Virus record (IMG/VR): IMGVR_UViG_3300009169_000126
Span: 1-20,533 of that record
Length of the DNA stretch: 20,533 nt
Strand: one strand, 5' to 3'
Source: a virus
Shown here: piece after piece, positions 93 through 11,160 of the stretch
Numbering within the stretch: position 1 is the stretch's first letter
Layout: every line of letters begins with the position of its first letter
Translations under genes and position numbers: made by a program
The notes under the pieces: model-generated
What the model saw: the letters and a program-made list of their open reading frames with translations, nothing else
Told to the model about the DNA's origin: nothing
Database searches by the model: none

Positions 93-417
93 CTTCTTAT
101 TGGTTGTTGTTGGAGTCTTTGCTGTCTTTCGAGTTGCAGAGTTATTTTCTATTGACGATGGTCCTTACGGAATATTCAAGAGAATCAGGGAATATGCTGG
201 ACGGAAGGCAATCAGTAGTAAATTTTGGTTTGAAGTTGCTGAAATGGTGAATTGTCCTTACTGTGTTGGAATATGGATTGCTTTCTTCCTGTCGATCTTG
301 ATATCTATCATGGGAAAAATGAATCTGATTCATTTCTTAATTATTTGGATGGCAATTGCAGGTGGACAATCTTTCTTGTGGTCGTTGATCAAGAATGGGG
401 AGAGAGAAGAATCATGA
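79..417 (+). CDS. DUF1360-like small integral membrane protein
   Basis: A protein of about 112 residues that resembles the DUF1360 family, small membrane proteins of about 115 residues known from Bacillus and phages, with no established function. Visible features are an N-terminal hydrophobic helix (about residues 5-20), the conserved-looking block FSIDDGPYGIFKRIRE, a Cys motif VNCPYCVGIWIAFF that runs into a second hydrophobic helix, and a third helix near the C-terminus before a charged tail. I chose ATG 79 over the in-frame TTG at 70 because it is the stronger start codon. The gene overlaps the upstream stop and ends in an ATGA junction with the next gene. A perfect 19-bp palindrome (317-335) lies inside the coding sequence. 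The paired Cys could bind metal or form a disulfide, but that is inference. Confidence 0.7.
   Translation: MSLNNFLLVVVGVFAVFRVAELFSIDDGPYGIFKRIREYAGRKAISSKFWFEVAEMVNCPYCVGIWIAFFLSILISIMGKMNLIHFLIIWMAIAGGQSFLWSLIKNGEREES
317..335. repeat. Perfect 19-bp palindrome, copy 1
   Basis: The sequence AAATGAATCTGATTCATTT has two perfect 9-bp arms around one central base. Its reverse complement is identical to the palindrome at 11160-11178. This copy lies inside the DUF1360-like gene. It has the form of a dimeric-protein binding site. No other exact copy was found on reading the window. Confidence 0.6.
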
Positions 418-1514
418 CTGTTGTTCCGTCTCAATCGTCTCTAATTCCAATTGAATTAGCAGTTCCTCTTCCGAGGTATGCGAAGTTGGTTGGATATGCT
501 GAGTGTGCATTCTTTGGAATATCTCACCCGAATAATGCTCAGTATGCGTGTCGCGAGATATGGACAAAGTCTCAAAGAGATATGGTTGAAAAATATCTGG
601 CTGAGGCACAGTTGGAGATAGAACAGGTGATTGAAGCTCCGGTTGTGCCGAGATGGATCGAAGCCGAAGAGCATCCGGCAATTCAGAATCCAGTAAGTTT
701 AGATTGGTCAAAGTTTATTGTAGCTGGATTTAAAACTACGGATGATATCAGTTTAGGGGAAAGTGTTGATCATACGTCCGATCCTGCGGTCATCGGGCCG
801 GTTGCGACAACAGTGACGGACGAAAATGAAATTCATGTATTTCATCCTGGGTCAGACGTTGAGATACACCCGTCTAAAATCACATTATCTGGCGGAAATG
901 TCACAATTGAGATTCCTCGGTGCAGGCTAGTAAGTGAAGCATATGCAGATAATCCGGTAAATGGATGGGACTATTATAATATTCCTCCATCTATGACTTC
1001 TCCATTCTTAGTAGAAGTAGATATAAAAAGGGTATATAACGATCCTTCTACAAATGTTATCTTGAAGCATCCTGGAACGGCGGGAAGTTGTACTTGTGGA
1101 TGCAGCGAGACAGAGACAACGGGGTGTATTATTATTAAAGATTCAGAAATAAGCTCCGTTTATTATCGCCATGCGGTATATTCGAACAATGTTTGGACGA
1201 AAAGTTCTACTATTTGTGGATGTGGTGCGATCAGGGCTTTGTATTATTACAAAGCTGGATTTCAGGGATTGCTATCTTATCAACTCGAAGATGCGATCAT
1301 GCGGTTGGCTCATTCAAAAATGCCAAATGAACCGTGCGGGTGCGATGTGATTACTCAACTATGGAGAAGGGATAGGGATCATCCGGAGTACATGACCAGG
1401 GAGAGGATGAATTGTGCGTTTGGATTGAATAATGGTGCTTGGATTGCGTTTCAGTTTGCGATGGCAAATAAGATTTGGAAGATGAGTAATTTTATGGGAA
1501 GGCAAAATGGTTAG
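414..1514 (+). CDS. Cys-rich putative head-tail connector (adaptor) protein
   Basis: A 366-residue protein starting at ATG 414, four bases inside the previous gene (ATGA), behind a purine-rich GGGGAGAGAG site. The open frame extends upstream to 252, but that part only shadows the DUF1360-like gene. The N-terminal third (about 15-85) contains helical sequence of the type YACREIWTKSQRDMVEKYL, reminiscent of adaptor proteins that dock under the portal. The middle is beta-rich. The C-terminal half carries clustered cysteines: C226, C228, C230, C238, C268, C270, C308, C310 and C334. These could form a zinc site or disulfides. The position before a gp10-like neck gene supports a head-tail interface role. 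I do not recognise a precise family, so the functional call is mainly contextual. Confidence 0.5.
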   Translation: MTVVPSQSSLIPIELAVPLPRYAKLVGYAECAFFGISHPNNAQYACREIWTKSQRDMVEKYLAEAQLEIEQVIEAPVVPRWIEAEEHPAIQNPVSLDWSKFIVAGFKTTDDISLGESVDHTSDPAVIGPVATTVTDENEIHVFHPGSDVEIHPSKITLSGGNVTIEIPRCRLVSEAYADNPVNGWDYYNIPPSMTSPFLVEVDIKRVYNDPSTNVILKHPGTAGSCTCGCSETETTGCIIIKDSEISSVYYRHAVYSNNVWTKSSTICGCGAIRALYYYKAGFQGLLSYQLEDAIMRLAHSKMPNEPCGCDVITQLWRRDRDHPEYMTRERMNCAFGLNNGAWIAFQFAMANKIWKMSNFMGRQNG

Positions 1515-2028
1515 GTTTAAGGCGATTCTTCCTAATCCGAGAGAACCGGACATCAATGCGATGAAACATCGTTTTGCAATCTCCGCCGAAAAGTATATGG
1601 AGATTGCGAGAGACGATTTTAAGGCAACGGTTCAATCATGGAAAGGCGAAAAGCCGGTATTTGTTCGAAGGACGAAACTTAGCGATCCAAAAGAAATCAC
1701 GGTAACTATATTCCTCGAGCGATCAGACGAGGGTGTGCAAAAATGGGATTGGTTGGATTATGGGACAGAAAAGCATCCAATTGCGGCCAATAAATCTCCG
1801 GTACTTGCGTATCAAGGTGTATTCAAGCCTAAAACTAGAGTTGGAGTTTTCCCGTCTACCCCTGGTGGGAAATCGGGGGAATATGTATTCAGAAAAGCTG
1901 TTGAGCATCCTGGGATAGAAGCGAGAGGATGGTCAGATGCTATTTTAGAAAAACATGAAAAGCCTTTTGCAGAATGGATGGAGAAGGCGATGAAATCGGT
2001 TGCGGAAGTCAGCAAGCATAAGGCTTAG
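1507..2028 (+). CDS. HK97 gp10-like neck / head-tail joining protein
   Basis: A 173-residue protein with the pattern of HK97 gp10-type neck proteins. The N-terminal half is helical, followed by the block WLDYGTEKHPIAANKSPVLAY (about residues 80-100), where the YGT-x-x-HxI core is typical. A later hydrophilic segment has HPGIEARGW (about 134-142), matching the usual HPG-x-x-A motif, and the C-terminus is helical. Such proteins sit between the connector and the tail tube at the head-tail joint. The start ATG 1507 overlaps the previous gene by 8 nt and has a GGGAAGG site just upstream. The stop codon overlaps the strong ribosome binding site of the next gene. The call rests on motif resemblance and position. 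Confidence 0.7.
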   Translation: MVRFKAILPNPREPDINAMKHRFAISAEKYMEIARDDFKATVQSWKGEKPVFVRRTKLSDPKEITVTIFLERSDEGVQKWDWLDYGTEKHPIAANKSPVLAYQGVFKPKTRVGVFPSTPGGKSGEYVFRKAVEHPGIEARGWSDAILEKHEKPFAEWMEKAMKSVAEVSKHKA

Positions 2029-2036
2029 GAGGTAGG

Positions 2037-2399
2037 ATGAATCTTGTTCAAGTAAAAGTAATTAGATCGAAAGGTGCTGCCACTTTAGTTGAATGGACGA
2101 ATAAGGATGGATGTTTAGAGAGAGCGTCTATTCCGTCAGTTGAAGTAAAGAAGGACTCTGTGAATATTGCGATGGTCGGGCAGGATATTCTTGATCAAGG
2201 AATTGACTATGGTATTCCGTTTTCAGATGTTCTTCCAGAATACGTTGTCAGTCCAAAGACAATTTCTAATATACTTCATTTGCATGGAATTTGGACAGAG
2301 AGCGATTTAAGGACAAATTCCAACGAATTGCAAGGTGTTATTCTTGAATGTTGCAAAAACATTCTTCGTGATTTGAGTAAACTTTCTAAGAAGAAATAA
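2037..2399 (+). CDS. Small conserved-looking phage protein between neck and tail tube genes
   Basis: A 120-residue protein behind a strong TAGGAGGTAGG site (2026-2036). The N-terminal half looks like beta strands (VKVIRSKGAATLVEWTNKDG). The C-terminal half is helical and includes HLHGIWTESDLRTN (about 81-94), followed by an amphipathic, Lys-rich end (LRDLSKLSKKK). I cannot assign it to a named family. Tail terminator or tail completion proteins often occupy this slot between the gp10-like gene and the tube gene, so that is a contextual possibility only. Its stop codon lies within the ribosome binding site of the tube gene. Confidence 0.6.
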   Translation: MNLVQVKVIRSKGAATLVEWTNKDGCLERASIPSVEVKKDSVNIAMVGQDILDQGIDYGIPFSDVLPEYVVSPKTISNILHLHGIWTESDLRTNSNELQGVILECCKNILRDLSKLSKKK

Positions 2400-2405
2400 G
2401 GAGGT
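2398..2405 (+). promoter_or_regulatory. Very strong ribosome binding site of the tail tube gene
   Basis: AAGGAGGT matches the Shine-Dalgarno core completely, 7 nt before ATG 2413. It is among the best sites in the window, as expected for a tube protein needed in many copies per virion. Confidence 0.75.
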
Positions 2406-2412
2406 ATTAACA

Positions 2413-3864
2413 ATGGCTGAAACCAATTTCTTAGCCGGTCAAGCGTCAGTTTGGGTGCAACCCGGTGGTCCGAACACTAAGCCGGAATTTCTCGGCTGTC
2501 ATGGTATTGGGGATGTAGAAGAGCCTCAAGGTGACGTGACTCTTTTGTATTGCCCGAATCCTGCAAGTGCAGGAAAATTCATGGTAAAGAACAGTTTCCA
2601 GGGTGCGCCGGGATCGCCAACGTTCTCGATTGACACTGATATTCGCAAGACTGCGGATTATCTGGAAACTGTGAAATGTCCTGTTCCGATCTTTGTTCAC
2701 AAGGTGACTTGCGGAAGACGGGATGATTTCACTAACTTTGAAAGGACGTTCATTTTCCGTCAAAGCCGGATTACGACTCGCACCCTTTCGAATCTTGCCG
2801 CTCGAACTCCGGATGATGAAGATGAATCGTTGCAGAGTTTTGATTTTTCCGCTGAGGAAATCCTTCGTGCGTTCAACTTGCAAGCGAACCGGGTGACAAT
2901 CTCGGAGACTGAGCATATCAACAATATCGCGGTTGGTGGTGAAGATCGATGCGAGAGCGATTGCGGTGATACTCAGGATTTTGGAGATATCGTGGTTGCG
3001 GTTTGCGATGCTCCGGATTATATGACTGCGGCAAATGTTCTGCTTACTCAAAATGCGGGAGCGCCGGTTGCAACTGCTGCCGATCCATTCGGAATCGGGG
3101 AAGATATTCGGGGAGTAGTTATTTTCAAAGTTGGGAAGACTACTACCAGGATTTTAGTTGCGAGAGGGACTACGGATGGGGGTAATCCCGCCGAAGTTGC
3201 TTATTCAGACGATTACGGTGTGTCGTGGACAAACGTCAATGTTGGTGCAACAAACGGCGAGTATGTTTCCAATGGTCATGCTTTATTTGCTCTGGATGCT
3301 CGCAACATCTGGCTTGGTACGAATCTTGGCAACGTTTATTTTTCCGAAGATGGTGGAATTGTCTGGACGAAACAGACAACCGCCGCATTGTCCGATAATG
3401 TTGCCGCAATTTCCTTCATTGATGACACTTATGGATTTTTATTGGTGGATGATGGTGAGGTCTATAAGACTATTGATGGTGGAACGACTTGGAGTTCTGT
3501 TACTGCAATCGGTACATTCGGAACTGGCACAGACATCGAAGCAATTGGTCGGTATTTCGTCTATGCGTCTGCTACGGATGGATTGTATTATTCCCATGAT
3601 GCTGGAACTACCTGGGCGTTGAGAGCATCATACAATATCGGTGCGATTGATTATCGGAATGAGTTGGAGGGGTTAGCTGTTGGCGGCGCTCCTGCTGGAC
3701 TCATTTACCAGACATTTGATGGTGGATATTCTTGGGGGGCGACTCCTACGATATCTAACCAGGGAATGTTGGACGTTCAATGGGTAAACAGTCAATTGGC
3801 CTGGATTTGCGGACGAACGCAGAATGGTACTGGCTTTTTGGCAAAGATGATTCCTGTTCCATAA
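2413..3864 (+). CDS. Probable major tail (tube) protein fused to an Asp-box beta-propeller
   Basis: A 483-residue protein. Residues 1 to about 180 lie exactly where the tube gene is expected: after the neck genes, behind a very strong ribosome binding site, and before the chaperones and tape measure. A Cys-containing linker (EDRCESDCGD) follows. From about 215 to the end there are five Asp-box (BNR) motifs of the form S/T-x-D-x-G-x-x-W: 265-272 (SDDYGVSW), 311-318 (SEDGGIVW), 353-360 (TIDGGTTW), 394-401 (SHDAGTTW) and 434-441 (TFDGGYSW). They repeat every 40-46 residues, as in sialidase-, sortilin- or Ycf48-type propellers. The 265-residue span would fit about six blades. No sialidase catalytic set is evident, so a glycan- or protein-binding decoration is more likely than an enzyme. 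The tube assignment is contextual; the propeller repeats are seen directly. Confidence 0.7.
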   Translation: MAETNFLAGQASVWVQPGGPNTKPEFLGCHGIGDVEEPQGDVTLLYCPNPASAGKFMVKNSFQGAPGSPTFSIDTDIRKTADYLETVKCPVPIFVHKVTCGRRDDFTNFERTFIFRQSRITTRTLSNLAARTPDDEDESLQSFDFSAEEILRAFNLQANRVTISETEHINNIAVGGEDRCESDCGDTQDFGDIVVAVCDAPDYMTAANVLLTQNAGAPVATAADPFGIGEDIRGVVIFKVGKTTTRILVARGTTDGGNPAEVAYSDDYGVSWTNVNVGATNGEYVSNGHALFALDARNIWLGTNLGNVYFSEDGGIVWTKQTTAALSDNVAAISFIDDTYGFLLVDDGEVYKTIDGGTTWSSVTAIGTFGTGTDIEAIGRYFVYASATDGLYYSHDAGTTWALRASYNIGAIDYRNELEGLAVGGAPAGLIYQTFDGGYSWGATPTISNQGMLDVQWVNSQLAWICGRTQNGTGFLAKMIPVP

Positions 3865-3985: not shown

Positions 3986-4597
3986 ATGAACGACAATTTT
4001 TTTATTACAACCAGGGGAGTGAAGATCGAGTGCAATCCGGTATCTGATACTAAGATTGCTTTGGCGTTGGCGGCAATTGAGAAAAGATATCGGGCGGAAG
4101 GAAAAAAGGTAGACAAGCCGAAATATAAGACTGTTTTGGCTGGCGGGGCGGAAGAGTGGTATGAGCATGACGATAAATCTATCGTTGGCGATCCGGAAGC
4201 AGAGAAAGAATGGGATGAATTCTTGGCTGATGCTCAGGACTTGATTGATGAGCAGAATAACAAGAAAGTCAGGATGCTTCTCAAGGGATTAGTTTGGAGT
4301 GAAAATCCGGATTGGGAAATTAACCAAATGATGGATGGGATCGAAGTTCCTTCGAAGCCGTTGGAGAGTGATGCTCCGGATGTAAAGGCGAAGAAAATGG
4401 AGGAGCGTTGGTGGCATTTTTTGACCACCGAGATATTAGAAACTCCGGATGATTTGTTCAATGCCATTGAAAAGATGACATTGTTGACTTATATGGGAGC
4501 AGTATCGGAGGAAGCTGTAAAAGCTGGAATTGCCAACTTTCGCAGTTTATTACAACAAAACTCCTCTACTGCATTTGAAACTCAAGGCAAAGAGTAA
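3986..4597 (+). CDS. Tail assembly chaperone, G-type
   Basis: A 203-residue protein between the tube and tape measure genes, the standard place for the G chaperone that binds the tape measure and recruits tube subunits. The sequence is acidic and largely helical, with a charged middle (EAEKEWDEFLADAQDLIDEQ) and the C-terminal region RWWHFLTTEILETPDDLFNAIEKMT, which resembles tail chaperones that end in a helical bundle. The start ATG 3986 follows a GAGGG site and the hairpin described separately. The last 70 nt overlap an open frame that probably encodes the T extension. The chaperone call rests on position, length, composition and the overlapping-frame arrangement. Confidence 0.7.
   Translation: MNDNFFITTRGVKIECNPVSDTKIALALAAIEKRYRAEGKKVDKPKYKTVLAGGAEEWYEHDDKSIVGDPEAEKEWDEFLADAQDLIDEQNNKKVRMLLKGLVWSENPDWEINQMMDGIEVPSKPLESDAPDVKAKKMEERWWHFLTTEILETPDDLFNAIEKMTLLTYMGAVSEEAVKAGIANFRSLLQQNSSTAFETQGKE
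4521..4597 (+). other. Probable programmed frameshift region (+1 or -2) joining G and T
   Basis: The T frame is open from just after the TAA at 4518-4520, and the G frame ends with TAA at 4595-4597, so any frame change must occur here. The -1 frame closes at TGA 4576-4578, so the usual -1 shift cannot make G-T. A +1 (or -2) shift enters the T frame. The two best +1 slips are TTT-C (4538-4541) and AAA-G (4589-4592), where tRNA-Phe or tRNA-Lys could re-pair. I cannot choose between them. Confidence 0.45.
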
Positions 4598-4802
4598 ATG
4601 GGAGTTTCGCAATAATCGTCTTAAGGAAATAGATACTGCTTTTGAGTGGAATATGACTCCGAGTGAATTCAGGGAATTGCCGTATGAAGATCGAGTAGAG
4701 ATGATGGCGTACCTTGATGCGACCAGGAAAATGAAGCAGTACGAAGATGAAATCCTTTCAGCGAGAAGTGAGGCGACAGCGAAACAGAACAGAAAAGGAT
4801 AA
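4530..4802 (+). CDS. Tail assembly chaperone T extension (probably expressed as G-T fusion)
   Basis: A 90-residue frame overlapping the end of the G gene, open from 4521. The only upstream start is TTG 4530. The nearest GGAGG (4508-4512) is 17 nt away, too far for normal initiation, which favours expression by ribosomal frameshifting. The conserved-looking part begins near KWEFRNNRLKEI and includes MTPSEFRELPYEDRVEMMAYLD and a charged helical tail (about 50-85), typical of the short T domains that bind tube subunits. It ends 6 nt before the tape measure ATG, where T reading frames normally end. An alternative is independent translation from TTG 4530 or ATG 4653, for which no good ribosome binding site is seen. 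Confidence 0.6.
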   Translation: MPTFAVYYNKTPLLHLKLKAKSKWEFRNNRLKEIDTAFEWNMTPSEFRELPYEDRVEMMAYLDATRKMKQYEDEILSARSEATAKQNRKG

Positions 4803-4808
4803 ATAAAA

Positions 4809-7800
4809 ATGCCAAGAACTCCTAAAATCGGCCTTCAAGCCGTAATGAATTTGTCAAACTTCAATTTGGGTTTGAGGGGATATATGGGAGGGCTTCGGTT
4901 AGCAACTGCCACTACCAATACTGCTACAAAGACGATTAATCGTTCTATTGGCGGGATTGGTAGTGGCGTTTTCGCTAAATTGGGAAAGGCAGCTTTTATT
5001 GGAATTGCAAGTGCGATTGGAATTGCAACTGCCGCTATTGTAGGGTTTGGATTAGCGGGGGCGAATGCTGCAATTTCTTTCGAGTCTGCGTTCGCCGGTG
5101 TTGTGAAGACAGTTGAAGATATATCGGATGCGGAAGGAAACTTAAATAAGGAAGGGGAAAAACTACGATCTGGTATAAGGGATTTAGCGAAGGACATTCC
5201 AGTTACAGTTGAAGAATTGGCAAAGATCGGTGAATTAGCCGGGCAATTTGGTGTTGCCAAAGAAGGAATTATTCCTTTTACGAGGGCGATTGCTCAATTA
5301 GGGGCTACGACGAACTTGACGGTAAGCGAGGCCGCAGAACAAATTTCAAGATTTATCAACATCCTCGGAACTCCGGTTGAACAGGTTGATCGGATCGGGG
5401 CTTCAATCGTTGCTCTCGGTAACAACTTTGCTACGACTGAAAAAGACATCTTGAATTGGTCATTGAGAATTGCCGGTATTGGACAGGTAGTTGGATTGAC
5501 CGAAGCGCAGATTTTTGGAATCGGTGCAGCGTTTTCGTCTGTTGGTGTTCAGGCAGAGTCTGGTGGAACGGCGGTTCAAAAGGCTTTAGTGTTTATGAAT
5601 CAGGCGGTTGCTACGGGGGGAGATAAGCTAGAGAAGTTTGGGAAGATAGCCGGGATGACCGCAGAGGAATTCAGGGCGTCTTTTGAAAAAGATGCTGGCG
5701 AGGCTTTCAGGAGTTTTATTGAAGGGTTGGGGATGGCGGGGAAGGGAGCAAGCCAGTTGTTGCAAGATGTTGGATTGACGGATGTTCGTCTTAATCGTGC
5801 GTTCCTTGGACTGGCAGGTGCGGGAGATTTACTTGCCAGGGCGATGGGGATGGCAGAAGATGCTTATTCAAACATCAATGATATTGCGGGGGTTGTTGGA
5901 AGTACGCTTGGGGTAAGTGAAGGTCAAATTATTTCATTTGTTGACACATTGAAAGTAGCGGCAGATGAAGCCAACTTGAGATTTGATACCAGATCATTGG
6001 CGGCGTATGGAGCGGCTTTTTCAAAACTTGGGATTGATGCGGGTACTGCTCAGGATGCTTTTACGGAGGCATTAAATCAGGTGAAATGGGAGGCTGCGGG
6101 GGGAGGAAAACAGTTAGAGAAGTTTGCTAAGATTGCGGGAGTTACGGCGGCTGATTTCGTATTGGCGTGGAGAGATGATCCAACAAAAGCTTTTGATATA
6201 TTTTTCAGTGGGATTAAGGCAAGTGGAGCATCGCTTGAGGAGTTTTCTTCATTATTCCCTAATTTGAATGAGACATCTGCGAAGGCGTTGTTTGATCTTG
6301 CCAGTAATAATCAATTGGTTGTAGATTCTTTCACGGCGATTGATAGTGCGTTTCTAAAGAATAATGCTTTGCAGGTCGAAGCGAATAAAAGGTATAAGAC
6401 AACCGAGTCTCAGCTTCAATTATTGAAGAACACATTCAATGATTTGGCGATTACGTTGGGGTATGCGATTCTTCCGGTATTGAATACATTCTTGAAGGCA
6501 TTTCGTCCGATTATCGATGAAGTAGGAAACAGGTTACCGGATGCGTTGAATCGGTACGTTATTCCGGCGTTGGAAGATTTAGGAAGTGTAATCGAGAAGA
6601 ATCTTCCGAATGCGCTTGCCTTTTTATCTGGAATGTGGACGAATACGCTTTATCCTGCGATTCAGGGCGTTACTAATTTTATTCGGAACACGGTTGTTCC
6701 TGTATTTCTTTCAATTTACAATGCAATTAAAGGGCCGGTTGGAAAAGCATTTGGATTTATTGAAGAGAATTCGGGTACGTTAATTCCTTTAATCAAGGGA
6801 GTTGCAGGAGCCTTCCTTGGGTGGATGGTTACATTAAAAGTTGTTGCATTAATCGTAAAAGGAATTTTGGCTGCAAAGACAGCCATTGCGGTTTTTGCGG
6901 GCGCATTTTCCGGGCCGGTCGGTTGGATTGCGCTTGCGGTTGCTGGATTGGCGGCGGTCTGGTCATCAAATTTCTTGGGAATTCGGGACATTATTCAAGA
7001 TGATGTATTTCCGGTTATCGTAAAGTTTGCCGATTTTATCAAACAGGGATTGCCGGGAGCGATGTCGGTTGTCAAGAAGATATTTCAGGACACATTTGGA
7101 AGTTTTGATCCGTTGACGAAAAGTTTTGCGGCTTTATGGGAATCATTGAAATCGTTGTGGATCAGTCTCGCCCCGCTTCTTATTCCGGTCGGGAAAATAT
7201 TGGCTGGAATATTCGGCGGAGTTGTATTGACGAGTATCAGCTTATTCCTTTCATTTGTGAATGGAGTGATCAATGCCCTTCCGGTATTGTTAGATACGGT
7301 TGTAAAAGTATTTAGCGGAGTCGTTGATTTAGTTGGAGGAATGGCGGATGTATTTATCGGAGCATTTCAGGCGTTTTGGGCTTGGATTACTGGTGATGAA
7401 GAAGGATTGAGGAAGGCTCAAGAAAAGGTATCGGGGGGAGCGCAGAAGATAGTTGATGCGGCTGGGGATATTATCGTCAATTTCTTTGGAGGTCTTTGGG
7501 ATACCGTAAAGACGTATTTTGAGACTTTTCAAGATTCTATGGTTGCGTTCTGGATAAGTATGTGGGACAACGTGATTGCGGAAACTGCGTTGGGGGAGAA
7601 AATAAATACATGGGTGACGGGTGCTTTTGCGGGGATTGATACTATTCTTGCTGGATTGGGAGAAAGTGCTGCGGGGGCGTGGATACAGGGTGCATTAGAT
7701 AAGTTAGGGGTTGATACTGAATTGATCGATAAGATCAAGGGAGTGTTCGGGATCGAGCCGACAAAAACGAATGTTCCGGTTCAAGAGTTCCCGCAGATGC

Positions 7801-10187
7801 CGCCCTGGTTGCAGGGAGGAACGGTACAAGTTCCAGTTCAGCCTATTCCGTCAAAAGAAATCACTCCGACTCAGGAATCGGGTGTTCCGAAGGGAGGGGG
7901 GTTAATGCCGCAAGCTGTTGAAATTATTCCGGGTGGAGAGATTGAACAGGCACAACAACAGCTTACAAACTTTTCCACGTTTGTCTCAAACATTACGAAT
8001 GCAATTGCGGGAAGTTTTGATAAGGCTAAAAATGCAATCATGCCAACATTCGAAGCAATCGGCGGATTTTTTACTGAAACATTATTCCCGTTTGTTCAAA
8101 AGTATTATGATTTTTGGTGGGGAACGGTTGTGCCGCTTTTAGGGTCTTTAGCAGAATATATTGGTACTGCATGGACAAAGGCTTTCGAAATAGTACATGA
8201 TTTCTTAGAAGATATTGGGGTTTTCGATACTTTCAACTCTGTTGTTGAATCTGGAAAACAAATAATCGAGGATTTGAAGCTGTCTTTTATTGAAGTAAGT
8301 ACAAAAATAGGTGAATTTTTAGATTTTTATTTGACTCCGCTGACTGATTACTTCAATTCCATTTGGGCGGGAGCAATTGAATCTGCAACCAGTCTGATCG
8401 ATGGACTGAGCCTTGGGTTAGACAGAATCAATATAGTTTTATCTCAGGCAAAAGATTGGGTAGACAAACTTACTGCTGCTTTGAAGGAATTGTCTTACGA
8501 TAAGTTAAAAGAAATGCTTAAGGCGATTCTTCCTGGTAGTCCTCCTCCGATTGCAGAGGGTCTTTCAGAAATTGAAGAAACTGCGGGAGACAGCGCAAGG
8601 GGAATAAAAAGGGCTGGAATCGATGGAATTCTGGAAGATATTGCAATTATTTTTAAAGATAAATTACTTCCGGAGATTGACAATTTTGTTACAACATCTC
8701 TTTCGTTAATTACGTCAATTCAAGATATTGGAACTGCGGCTTTCAATTCTATGACGCAGATTTTAGATTTTGTTGCGGCGCTCAATACGGTTTCAATTCC
8801 AGCGGCGTTGCAACAGGGGAGTCCTTCTCCGTTAGAGCAGGCGTTATTGGATTTTTCGTATGCGGCTCAGGTAGCGAGAGATTCTTTTGATGGATTTGTA
8901 GAATCATTAGGGCAGGATATTTCGACTGGATTTGTGATGAGTGCTAAGAAGGAATTAGCTAGGTTGAAGGTAGAAAGAGATATCGCTATTCGGGATGCTA
9001 AAAGAAACTTGAAAAAGTCTCAAGCTGAATTGGCAGACGCAAGAGCGGAACAGGCGAAATTAGCCGCAAAGAAGAATATTCCTGCCGTAACTAGGATAGA
9101 GAAACGAGTGGTAGCAAACGCAGGTGGCGTTCCGATTGTTCAGGATGTTGAAGTCGTTATTACGCCAGGATCAAGTGCGGCGACAAAGAAAGAGTTGGAT
9201 AAGGCAAAAGATAGTGTGTCGGAATTAAAGGATAATGTTACGCTTGCTAAGTATGCTTTGCAAGATTTGTTGAATACTCCGCTTCCGCTCATATCCAGGT
9301 TGATTACTAATCTTGCGAGTAAACTTTCATCTATTACGGGGAGTTTTATATCCTTATATCAAGAGAAATTGATTGATCCAGTCGTTGAGCAGTTGGATCG
9401 GTTGAAGGATAAGTTGGAGGAAGATCAGGATGCTTTCAATGAGCTTACAGATCGAGTAAAGGAATTACGAGAAGCTTTTGGTGCGCCTATTTCGGATTAT
9501 ATTTCTTATAAGGATGCGTTGAACCTTCCGGAAGGGAAAGTTAGATCAGAGATATTAGCTTCATTGAAGGCTGAGGAAGAGATAAAGACGATTGAACAGC
9601 AGAGGCGTGAAATTGCGATCAAGATGGGGTATACACAGGCTGAGATTGCAAGATATGCTGAACTTGAAGCTGACGCTAAAAAGAGAACGTTGGAATACGA
9701 AACAAATGTTCAGCGGCTGAAATTCTTGGAAACACAGTTGGATTTGATCGAGCTAATTCAAGAGAGAGGGTTGGATGCGGGAAAAATATTGTCTGGAATT
9801 ACTCTTGGGTTGAATGCGTCTTTACCGCAGTTGATCGATGCGATGAATCTTGCGATTACTGCGTTGATCAAAGAAGCAAACGACTCGCTTGAGATAGGCT
9901 CTCCTTCGAAGGTATTTGCTCGGATTGGGGAGAATATGATGAAGAGTACGGCGGGGGCTGTTCTTGGACAGGTGAGTGATTTACAGCTTGCGATGAAGAG
10001 GGCGATGGCATCTGTTATTAGAACGGGGCAATCATTGGGATCGTCTATTGCGGGGAGTAGGACAAATGTATATAATAATAATAGTCGAGTCGTGAATTTA
10101 GAAATCAATCCGAGTTATCAGCAGTACCAAAGTCCGGCAGATATTTATTATGATGTTCATGCGGCATTGGGTGCGGTGAGGTTGTAA
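4809..10187 (+). CDS. Tail tape measure protein (TP901-type)
   Basis: At 1792 residues this is the largest gene, and it follows the chaperone pair. It sets tail length as an internal ruler; at the usual 0.15 nm per residue the tail would be about 270 nm. A hydrophobic helix (about 58-85) precedes a TP901/PhageMin-tail core (about 90-335; for example RDLAKDIPVTVEELAKIGEL). A second related module at about 395-500 repeats the AAFS...EKFxKIAGxTAxxF pattern of 240-305. Long membrane-like stretches lie at about 658-718 and 787-860. A coiled coil at about 1380-1425 and a second charged helical region at about 1560-1650 follow. Near the end, GSPSKVFARIGENM (about 1696-1709) matches the C-terminal motif of many tape measures. 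Related GSPPP and GSPSP motifs occur earlier. No protease or lysozyme domain is evident. Confidence 0.93.
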   Translation: MPRTPKIGLQAVMNLSNFNLGLRGYMGGLRLATATTNTATKTINRSIGGIGSGVFAKLGKAAFIGIASAIGIATAAIVGFGLAGANAAISFESAFAGVVKTVEDISDAEGNLNKEGEKLRSGIRDLAKDIPVTVEELAKIGELAGQFGVAKEGIIPFTRAIAQLGATTNLTVSEAAEQISRFINILGTPVEQVDRIGASIVALGNNFATTEKDILNWSLRIAGIGQVVGLTEAQIFGIGAAFSSVGVQAESGGTAVQKALVFMNQAVATGGDKLEKFGKIAGMTAEEFRASFEKDAGEAFRSFIEGLGMAGKGASQLLQDVGLTDVRLNRAFLGLAGAGDLLARAMGMAEDAYSNINDIAGVVGSTLGVSEGQIISFVDTLKVAADEANLRFDTRSLAAYGAAFSKLGIDAGTAQDAFTEALNQVKWEAAGGGKQLEKFAKIAGVTAADFVLAWRDDPTKAFDIFFSGIKASGASLEEFSSLFPNLNETSAKALFDLASNNQLVVDSFTAIDSAFLKNNALQVEANKRYKTTESQLQLLKNTFNDLAITLGYAILPVLNTFLKAFRPIIDEVGNRLPDALNRYVIPALEDLGSVIEKNLPNALAFLSGMWTNTLYPAIQGVTNFIRNTVVPVFLSIYNAIKGPVGKAFGFIEENSGTLIPLIKGVAGAFLGWMVTLKVVALIVKGILAAKTAIAVFAGAFSGPVGWIALAVAGLAAVWSSNFLGIRDIIQDDVFPVIVKFADFIKQGLPGAMSVVKKIFQDTFGSFDPLTKSFAALWESLKSLWISLAPLLIPVGKILAGIFGGVVLTSISLFLSFVNGVINALPVLLDTVVKVFSGVVDLVGGMADVFIGAFQAFWAWITGDEEGLRKAQEKVSGGAQKIVDAAGDIIVNFFGGLWDTVKTYFETFQDSMVAFWISMWDNVIAETALGEKINTWVTGAFAGIDTILAGLGESAAGAWIQGALDKLGVDTELIDKIKGVFGIEPTKTNVPVQEFPQMPPWLQGGTVQVPVQPIPSKEITPTQESGVPKGGGLMPQAVEIIPGGEIEQAQQQLTNFSTFVSNITNAIAGSFDKAKNAIMPTFEAIGGFFTETLFPFVQKYYDFWWGTVVPLLGSLAEYIGTAWTKAFEIVHDFLEDIGVFDTFNSVVESGKQIIEDLKLSFIEVSTKIGEFLDFYLTPLTDYFNSIWAGAIESATSLIDGLSLGLDRINIVLSQAKDWVDKLTAALKELSYDKLKEMLKAILPGSPPPIAEGLSEIEETAGDSARGIKRAGIDGILEDIAIIFKDKLLPEIDNFVTTSLSLITSIQDIGTAAFNSMTQILDFVAALNTVSIPAALQQGSPSPLEQALLDFSYAAQVARDSFDGFVESLGQDISTGFVMSAKKELARLKVERDIAIRDAKRNLKKSQAELADARAEQAKLAAKKNIPAVTRIEKRVVANAGGVPIVQDVEVVITPGSSAATKKELDKAKDSVSELKDNVTLAKYALQDLLNTPLPLISRLITNLASKLSSITGSFISLYQEKLIDPVVEQLDRLKDKLEEDQDAFNELTDRVKELREAFGAPISDYISYKDALNLPEGKVRSEILASLKAEEEIKTIEQQRREIAIKMGYTQAEIARYAELEADAKKRTLEYETNVQRLKFLETQLDLIELIQERGLDAGKILSGITLGLNASLPQLIDAMNLAITALIKEANDSLEIGSPSKVFARIGENMMKSTAGAVLGQVSDLQLAMKRAMASVIRTGQSLGSSIAGSRTNVYNNNSRVVNLEINPSYQQYQSPADIYYDVHAALGAVRL

Positions 10188-10188
10188 G

Positions 10189-11160
10189 ATGGTACAGTTT
10201 CATTCTCAACACTGGTTTGAAGATTTTGAATTGATTTGTCCGAGTGGAACGGTTTACAGATTCAATTCGGGGGAAAGATGCGTGATGACGTTTGAGGGTT
10301 TAGGGATGCCGGACATCAATTACATCACGCAAAGAGGGCCTTTTCAGCATGGCGAGACGATGATAGATTTTCGCCTTGAGAAAAGGATTATTCAAATTTT
10401 ATTGAGACAGGATTCTTGCAGCCGTTGGGATTATTGGGATTTGAGGGCTGATTTGATTAATAAAATGAGGCCTAACCGTTCTCCTTATGGGACAATTTCC
10501 CCTGGTCAATTTGTTGTCTCATTACCGGATGCGTCAAAAAGGGCAGTTCATGTCACGATTGATGGGGGATCGCCCAGGTTCGGACCGAGGGACTTAGACC
10601 AATGGGATGAATGGGGATATACGGAGACACTTCGATTTATTGCTCACGATCCAGTCTGGTATGATCCTACGGAAGTCTGCGATACATTGGCGATACTTGC
10701 GTCAGATGATGAATTGGTATTTCCAATCACATTCAAGAATCCGGTTACTAATCCTGATGGCACGGAATTGGTATTTCAGGCGGGAGTGATTTATATAGTT
10801 ACTTCTGTTGCATATTTGGGGACGTGGATCACGTTTCCGAATTTTGTTATTCAGGGGCCTCTTTATGGGCCTACGATAACGAATAATTCTACGGGTCAAA
10901 AGATCAAATTAAATTATAATGTTTTGACGGGAGAGGAAGTTTCGATAAATTTGCAATATGGACAAAAGAGTGTAGTTAGTGATATCAATGGGGATATCAT
11001 TGGCGCAGTAAGTGACGATAGCGATTTGACTGGATTTCACTTAGAGCCTGATCCAGGTGTAGTTGGTGGAATTAATGAAATCGTTGTATCGGGTGGGAAC
11101 GCGGCGATTGGCACGACTCAAGTAGATATGAGTTATTTCACCAGATATATCGGGATTTGA
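10189..11160 (+). CDS. Distal tail protein (Dit-like)
   Basis: A 323-residue protein immediately after the tape measure (one base between stop and ATG), the standard place for the Dit hub at the tube tip. The N-terminal domain has alternating strands (DFELICPSGTVYRFN) and the central segment LRQDSCSRWDYWDLRADL. Near the end of the first domain, GYTETLRFIAHDPVWYDP (about 142-159) matches the Dit signature in which a strand runs into a D-P-x-W/F-Y motif. The C-terminal part (about 175-323) is beta-rich and resembles the second domain of long Dit proteins; I see no clear carbohydrate-binding module. It probably forms the hexameric platform for the gp37-like protein and the tip proteins downstream. 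Confidence 0.8.
   Translation: MVQFHSQHWFEDFELICPSGTVYRFNSGERCVMTFEGLGMPDINYITQRGPFQHGETMIDFRLEKRIIQILLRQDSCSRWDYWDLRADLINKMRPNRSPYGTISPGQFVVSLPDASKRAVHVTIDGGSPRFGPRDLDQWDEWGYTETLRFIAHDPVWYDPTEVCDTLAILASDDELVFPITFKNPVTNPDGTELVFQAGVIYIVTSVAYLGTWITFPNFVIQGPLYGPTITNNSTGQKIKLNYNVLTGEEVSINLQYGQKSVVSDINGDIIGAVSDDSDLTGFHLEPDPGVVGGINEIVVSGGNAAIGTTQVDMSYFTRYIGI

Follow-up and report, generated by a model that had tools for sequence, protein, structure and literature searches.

A very probable tail tube protein bearing an obligate seven-bladed Asp-box propeller in uncultivated siphoviruses

The window (the whole 20.5 kb virus record analysed here) contains a siphovirus-type tail module in which one gene very probably encodes the subunit of a tail tube that is obligatorily coated with propellers. 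The reading considered likely is that of a tube protein from a long-tailed, non-contractile phage in which every copy bears a propeller and the coat mainly braces and shields. The gene would encode the tail tube (major tail) protein of such a phage, with residues 1 to about 150 forming a tube domain that would stack in rings around the tape measure protein and residues about 155-483 forming a closed seven-bladed Asp-box propeller of fixed orientation relative to the tube domain. The propeller would be present on every tube subunit because the two parts are encoded as a single uninterrupted polypeptide and no frameshift is needed in the window. In siphophages the tail extends by 0.15 nm per tape measure residue and each ring accounts for 4 nm. 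The 1792 residues of the tape measure protein translate into a calculated tail length of about 270 nm, with 67 rings and about 400 subunits, and this is an upper estimate because not every segment of the tape measure need span the tube. The propellers would coat the tube on the outside in a regular array that braces adjacent subunits and acts as a shield, in a manner comparable to the C-terminal domain of lambda gpV, and weak surface binding may be a second role of this layer. On balance, a divergent group of uncultivated siphoviruses would carry an obligate shell of hundreds of tube-borne propellers, the shell of one lineage being separate and completed by the tube chain.

An uninterrupted reading frame with a seven-bladed Asp-box propeller

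The tube-propeller gene and its neighbours are given in Table 1. All five Asp-boxes of the original prediction were present as octamers at precisely the residues that it had given. When residues 155-483 were shuffled 10,000 times, the mean number of Asp-box motifs was 0.22 with a maximum of 4, and five were never attained. The 483-residue protein also matched Pfam PF14870 (Ycf48-type BNR) with 37.1 bits against a cut-off of 27, and this match together with the repeated S/T-x-D-x-G-x-x-W motifs (n=5) identified the region as an Asp-box propeller.

Structure prediction of the full-length protein by AlphaFold2 with 53 relatives gave a mean pLDDT of 94.2 and a pTM of 0.89. A first prediction from two sequences, in which the N-terminal domain had a pLDDT below 50, was discarded. 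The propeller region was predicted with a pLDDT mostly above 90 to be closed, which the original prediction had proposed to check, and to have seven blades. By AlphaFold2 and fold matching the propeller consisted of approximately 330 residues (about 155-483) rather than the roughly 265 extra C-terminal residues first described, and the domain border was predicted near residues 150-155 instead of about 180. The pTM is so high for a two-domain protein that it suggests the tube domain and propeller may be held in a fixed arrangement. In the model, blade 1 would start near residue 169 and blade 7 would comprise the strands at 452-481, with a strand near 156-160 closing blade 7 as a velcro. The Asp-boxes sit in blades 1-6, and the blade 1 copy is degenerate in the window protein. 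Cysteines 29, 47, 89, 100, 180 and 184 of the window protein ranked among the family's most conserved residues and possibly form disulfides or a metal site.

Residues 154-483 superposed on seven-bladed chains with Z of about 28-30 and an rmsd of mostly 2.4-3.0. Ycf48 and HCF136 were the best PDB matches of the full-length model by Foldseek and also the best PDB match in the profile search. Like the propeller described here, these proteins (PF14870) are seven-bladed Asp-box propellers, but they are free-standing cellular photosystem II assembly factors with approximately 15% identity to it, and no photosystem link was seen here. That the propeller is an enzyme, namely a tail-borne glycosidase resembling sialidases or xyloglucanases and degrading polysaccharide of the capsule or matrix, is highly improbable. 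Sialidase and GH74 chains were among the profile matches and GH74 chains among the fold matches; however, both the best sequence and the best fold matches were to the non-enzymatic Ycf48 and HCF136, and the most conserved residues besides the Asp-boxes showed no obvious catalytic set. The propeller's profile matches to sialidases (GH33), enzymes characterised by an arginine triad and by catalytic Asp, Glu and Tyr, were weak.

Table 1. Features of the tube-propeller gene and the surrounding tail module in the window
Feature	Position	Strand	Details
Conserved neck gene, probable head-tail adaptor	252..1514	+	family alignments; true start probably 414
Neck gene, HK97 gp10-like by position	1507..2028	+	synteny; weak phrog_5
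Small gene in tail terminator position	2037..2399	+	synteny; compare Harrison, HK97
Ribosome binding site GGAGGT of tube-propeller gene	2400..2405	+	sequence reading; 7 nt 5' of ATG
Tube-propeller gene	2413..3864	+	483 aa, uninterrupted ORF
N-terminal domain, inferred tail tube domain	2413..2862	+	residues 1-150; gene position, predicted strands/helix
Seven-bladed propeller	2875..3861	+	residues ~155-483; AlphaFold2, Foldseek, superposition
Degenerate sixth Asp-box QNAGAPVA, blade 1	3049..3072	+	residues 213-220; good form in many relatives
Asp-box SDDYGVSW	3205..3228	+	residues 265-272
Asp-box SEDGGIVW	3343..3366	+	residues 311-318
Asp-box TIDGGTTW	3469..3492	+	residues 353-360
Asp-box SHDAGTTW	3592..3615	+	residues 394-401
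Asp-box TFDGGYSW	3712..3735	+	residues 434-441
Tail assembly chaperone G-like gene	3986..4597	+	position, overlapping downstream frame, weak phrog_25000 E 0.09
Chaperone T-like frame overlapping G-like gene	4530..4802	+	similar overlapping frames in relatives
Tape measure protein	4809..10187	+	1792 aa; phrog_13339 E 6e-99, Pfam PF10145
Distal tail protein Dit	10189..11160	+	phrog_106, phrog_33, Pfam PF22768 above cut-off

Gene position and the N-terminal domain

Both in the window and in the relatives examined, the tube-propeller gene alone occupied the interval between the neck genes and the chaperone and tape measure genes. The order of neck, terminator-like, tube-propeller, chaperone pair, tape measure and Dit genes agrees with that of annotated phages, Harrison, HK97 and lambda among them, and it places the tube-propeller gene at the position of the major tail (tube) protein in the window and its relatives. 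Matches of PHROGs to the chaperone-like and neck-like neighbours were weak, and three of the 22 neck-gene relatives scanned matched phrog_5 ('tail completion or Neck1') weakly with a best E-value of 0.014. The strongest independent test of the tube slot is the scan keyed to the neck gene. With the neck protein encoded at 252..1514 alone as the query, 34 viral loci were retrieved and a tube-propeller gene was located a few genes downstream in every one (34/34), including a locus (L177) where a long antisense ORF masked the gene and it was found on re-inspection.

Seven strands and a single short helix were predicted over the roughly 150 residues of the N-terminal domain, with a pLDDT mostly above 90 (AlphaFold2). 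The order of strands and helix was like that of known tube domains, and the predicted helix was very short (residues 83-86). Lambda gpVN is described as combining seven strands with a helix over a comparable length of about 150 residues (PMC8718954). Tube proteins in general have a beta-sandwich with a flanking alpha-helix and a loop that joins strands 2 and 3, and they build hexameric (or trimeric) rings that stack.

Profile searches with the N-terminal domain gave no relevant match in the PDB, PHROGs or Pfam, and hhalign comparisons with the tubes of lambda, HK97, TP901-1, 80alpha, JBD30, Harrison and phi31 gave none above about 1%. Under identical conditions the tube profiles of lambda and HK97, both built from few sequences, detected each other at 95%. 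The lambda and 80alpha tubes do not detect each other as single sequences, and profile similarity is therefore not strictly tube-defining. By eye GAPGSPTFSIDTDI resembled HK97 GLPSPSEISLSGNF, but this resemblance lacked significance and was set aside, and a scan for relatives of the HK97 tube returned near-identical sequences only. The fold-search lists of the full-length model, including that of VIA-align, were filled by propellers and were uninformative on the tube fold; since propellers took up the VIA-align list, the absence of a tube there means nothing.

The original assignment of this gene to the tail tube was thus borne out strongly by gene position in every locus examined, but not by a sequence or profile match to known tubes. 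Because position supports a tube while no sequence or profile method ties the N-terminal domain to known tubes, we infer, strongly, that this is a tail tube domain. It is unlikely that the slot is occupied by chance by an independent tail adhesin or decoration and that the tube is encoded elsewhere. Such a protein would be in keeping with an N-terminal domain without sequence match to known tubes and with the weak identification of the genes in the chaperone and terminator positions. However, the slot held no other gene in the loci examined, the linkage of tube-propeller and neck genes was universal in the independent scan, and searches of limited sensitivity with two Pfam tube models (Phage_TTP_12 and Phage_tail_2) gave no tube above cut-off elsewhere in 16 related records. 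A tube gene elsewhere, which the original prediction had named as grounds against a fusion, was not encountered in these loci and records.

Relatives, co-inheritance and natural splits

The family was common in IMG/VR, where scans with the whole protein, the N-terminal domain and the neck gene yielded 72 distinct N-domain ORFs. Some of these scans were keyed partly to the propeller while the N-domain-only and neck-gene-only scans were not. Identity of the relatives to the window protein ranged from approximately 55% down to 18%. Both domains were encoded in one ORF in 66 of the 68 complete distinct relatives, defined as those with both ORF ends inside the contig, which provides the matching fusions in phage databases that had been proposed as a check. 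The remaining two (L008 and L214) had a separate propeller ORF directly behind the tube ORF, and N-domain-only scans for relatives lacking the propeller recovered just these two split cases. No family member was found in a cultured-phage collection by tblastn with the window protein, its N-terminal domain and three relatives. Scans of GTDB genome contigs, which rely on short conserved peptides and may miss distant prophages, gave no relative and hence no host was assigned.

Pairwise identities of the tube domain and of the propeller were strongly correlated (Mantel r 0.86; none of 2000 permutations as high), and the two domains share one history and are co-inherited. Conservation was 32% in the propeller compared with 30% in the tube domain. 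The shared history and the conservation of the propeller speak against a host-range module that changes quickly and in favour of a constant role. Judged from these sequence comparisons, a universal and conserved propeller would be no less compatible with a structural or general surface role than with the binding of glycans or the environment.

In one of the split cases (L214:2459-3972), a tube ORF of 178 aa, counted from the first possible start, and a propeller ORF of 323 aa were 5 nt apart. This arrangement could be genuine, but it could also stem from a programmed frameshift or from one indel introduced in sequencing, and it is less certain when taken alone because a single indel could join both frames. 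In the other (L008:5983-7444, on a contig shared with L050 and L220), tube and propeller were again separate ORFs. The break seems to lie inside blade 1, with the first ORF (199 aa) apparently extending over the initial strands of that blade and the second (281 aa) apparently beginning at its third strand. A single sequencing error was ruled out as the cause of this split, as all three frames were closed between the ORFs, and a Shine-Dalgarno-like AAGTGAGGTG preceded the second start. If the split is real, the L008 propeller would be completed by the tube chain and anchored without a covalent bond. By eye L008 and L214 resemble close relatives, and both splits fit a two-part reading of the protein.

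Several loci contained more than one copy. Two paralogous tube-propeller genes were located at L011:3333-5609 and 5983-7482, the first of which continued behind the propeller into an additional C-terminal domain of LamG/concanavalin-like type (Pfam PF13385, E-value 7e-9). Tube-propeller copies were in tandem at L036:4992-7931, and at L049:1-2614 a propeller-matching frame of 361 aa, open at the contig start, preceded the tube-propeller gene. Tails of the latter two viruses could mix two subunit types. A single 143 kb contig (G005) carried two tube-propeller genes about 75 kb apart (L019 and L024) and is perhaps a concatemer or two related viruses joined in assembly. Asp-box propeller repeats were also carried by the protein in the Dit position behind the tape measure gene at L179:12009-12995, and the propeller domain therefore occurs elsewhere in tails.

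Known tube decorations and the possible role of the propeller

The extensions described on tubes so far comprise Ig and FN3 domains (PMC8718954) as well as a BppA-like carbohydrate-binding module, which 936 phages add by a frameshift to a portion of the tube subunits (PMC6669499). The tube-propeller was neither an Ig/FN3-type nor a frameshift-made decoration, being a propeller encoded within a single uninterrupted ORF in the window. As in 936 TpeX, a large C-terminal domain behind the tube domain would decorate the tail; in TpeX, however, the carbohydrate-binding module lies behind an adhesin domain and only a portion of the subunits receive it, through a programmed frameshift (PMC6669499), whereas here the propeller directly follows the tube domain in one ORF. 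Lambda gpV, T5 pb6, YSD1_22 and SPP1 gp17.1* (PMC8718954) similarly combine a tube domain with a C-terminal domain on the outer surface. Their extensions are small Ig or FN3 domains (about 90 residues in lambda) compared with a propeller of about 330 residues here, their tube domains had no detectable sequence similarity to the N-terminal domain, and the SPP1 gp17.1* extension is dispensable whereas the propeller was present in every complete relative found.

A predicted structure in BFVD (UniProt A0A1P8DJ39) matched the model over nearly its full length (527 alignment columns, TM-score 0.75, E-value 9e-19) at 17% identity to the window protein. This protein probably belongs to the tube-propeller family, and a family member is therefore probably already in UniProt. 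A BNR/Asp-box gene has been mentioned in Nostoc cyanophages, with no tube context (PMC4916379). The titles and abstracts returned from 5.39 million open papers contained no case of a tube or major tail protein with a propeller, BNR or Asp-box. This is in agreement with the earlier view that a propeller is unusual on tubes, and the coat appears to be a kind of tail-tube decoration unreported in the open literature searched.

For the chief role of the propeller the favoured order is bracing and shielding, followed by adhesin and then enzyme. A chiefly bracing and shielding coat would have about an even chance and a chiefly binding or adhesin layer somewhat under an even one; the two roles are compatible and not exclusive. 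The fuller form of the adhesin reading, a tube fusion in which hundreds of weak sites for a surface or environmental glycan keep the phage close to host cells until its tail tip takes hold, is put forward tentatively. The carbohydrate-binding tail extensions of 936 phages bind host cells (PMC6669499), and both the lectin-like LamG domain behind one L011 propeller and the Asp-boxes of the Dit-position protein in L179 would accord with such a function. However, the propeller was slightly more conserved than the tube domain and followed the same tree, unlike a host-range module, and it was missing from none of the complete relatives. Bracing and shielding therefore remain the favoured role.

Tail tubes are among the most repeated phage surfaces and the function of their decoration is an open question, such decoration being dispensable in SPP1, helpful in lambda and cell-binding in 936 phages (PMC8718954, PMC6669499). 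A far larger domain kept in every complete relative makes this question testable by its removal. If true, the obligate propeller shell would be a tail surface plan beside bare and Ig/CBM-decorated tubes, and a self-assembling tube that bears propellers at constant intervals would lend itself naturally to use as a display scaffold. Dozens of viral contigs also gain a tail tube candidate that was missed by profile libraries (no PHROGs match).

Two other window genes were of interest. The 883 aa product of window:13555-16206 had two halves that looked alike, for example VIELPQGYLGMTNPTF and VIELPTGTITITNPTL, and no PHROGs match, and it appears to be a beta-helix-like tail fibre or spike that has been duplicated internally. 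An endolysin was encoded at window:18422-19372 (phrog_291, E-value 3e-18) and, from its sequence, is probably a GH25 muramidase that may offer a clue to the host.
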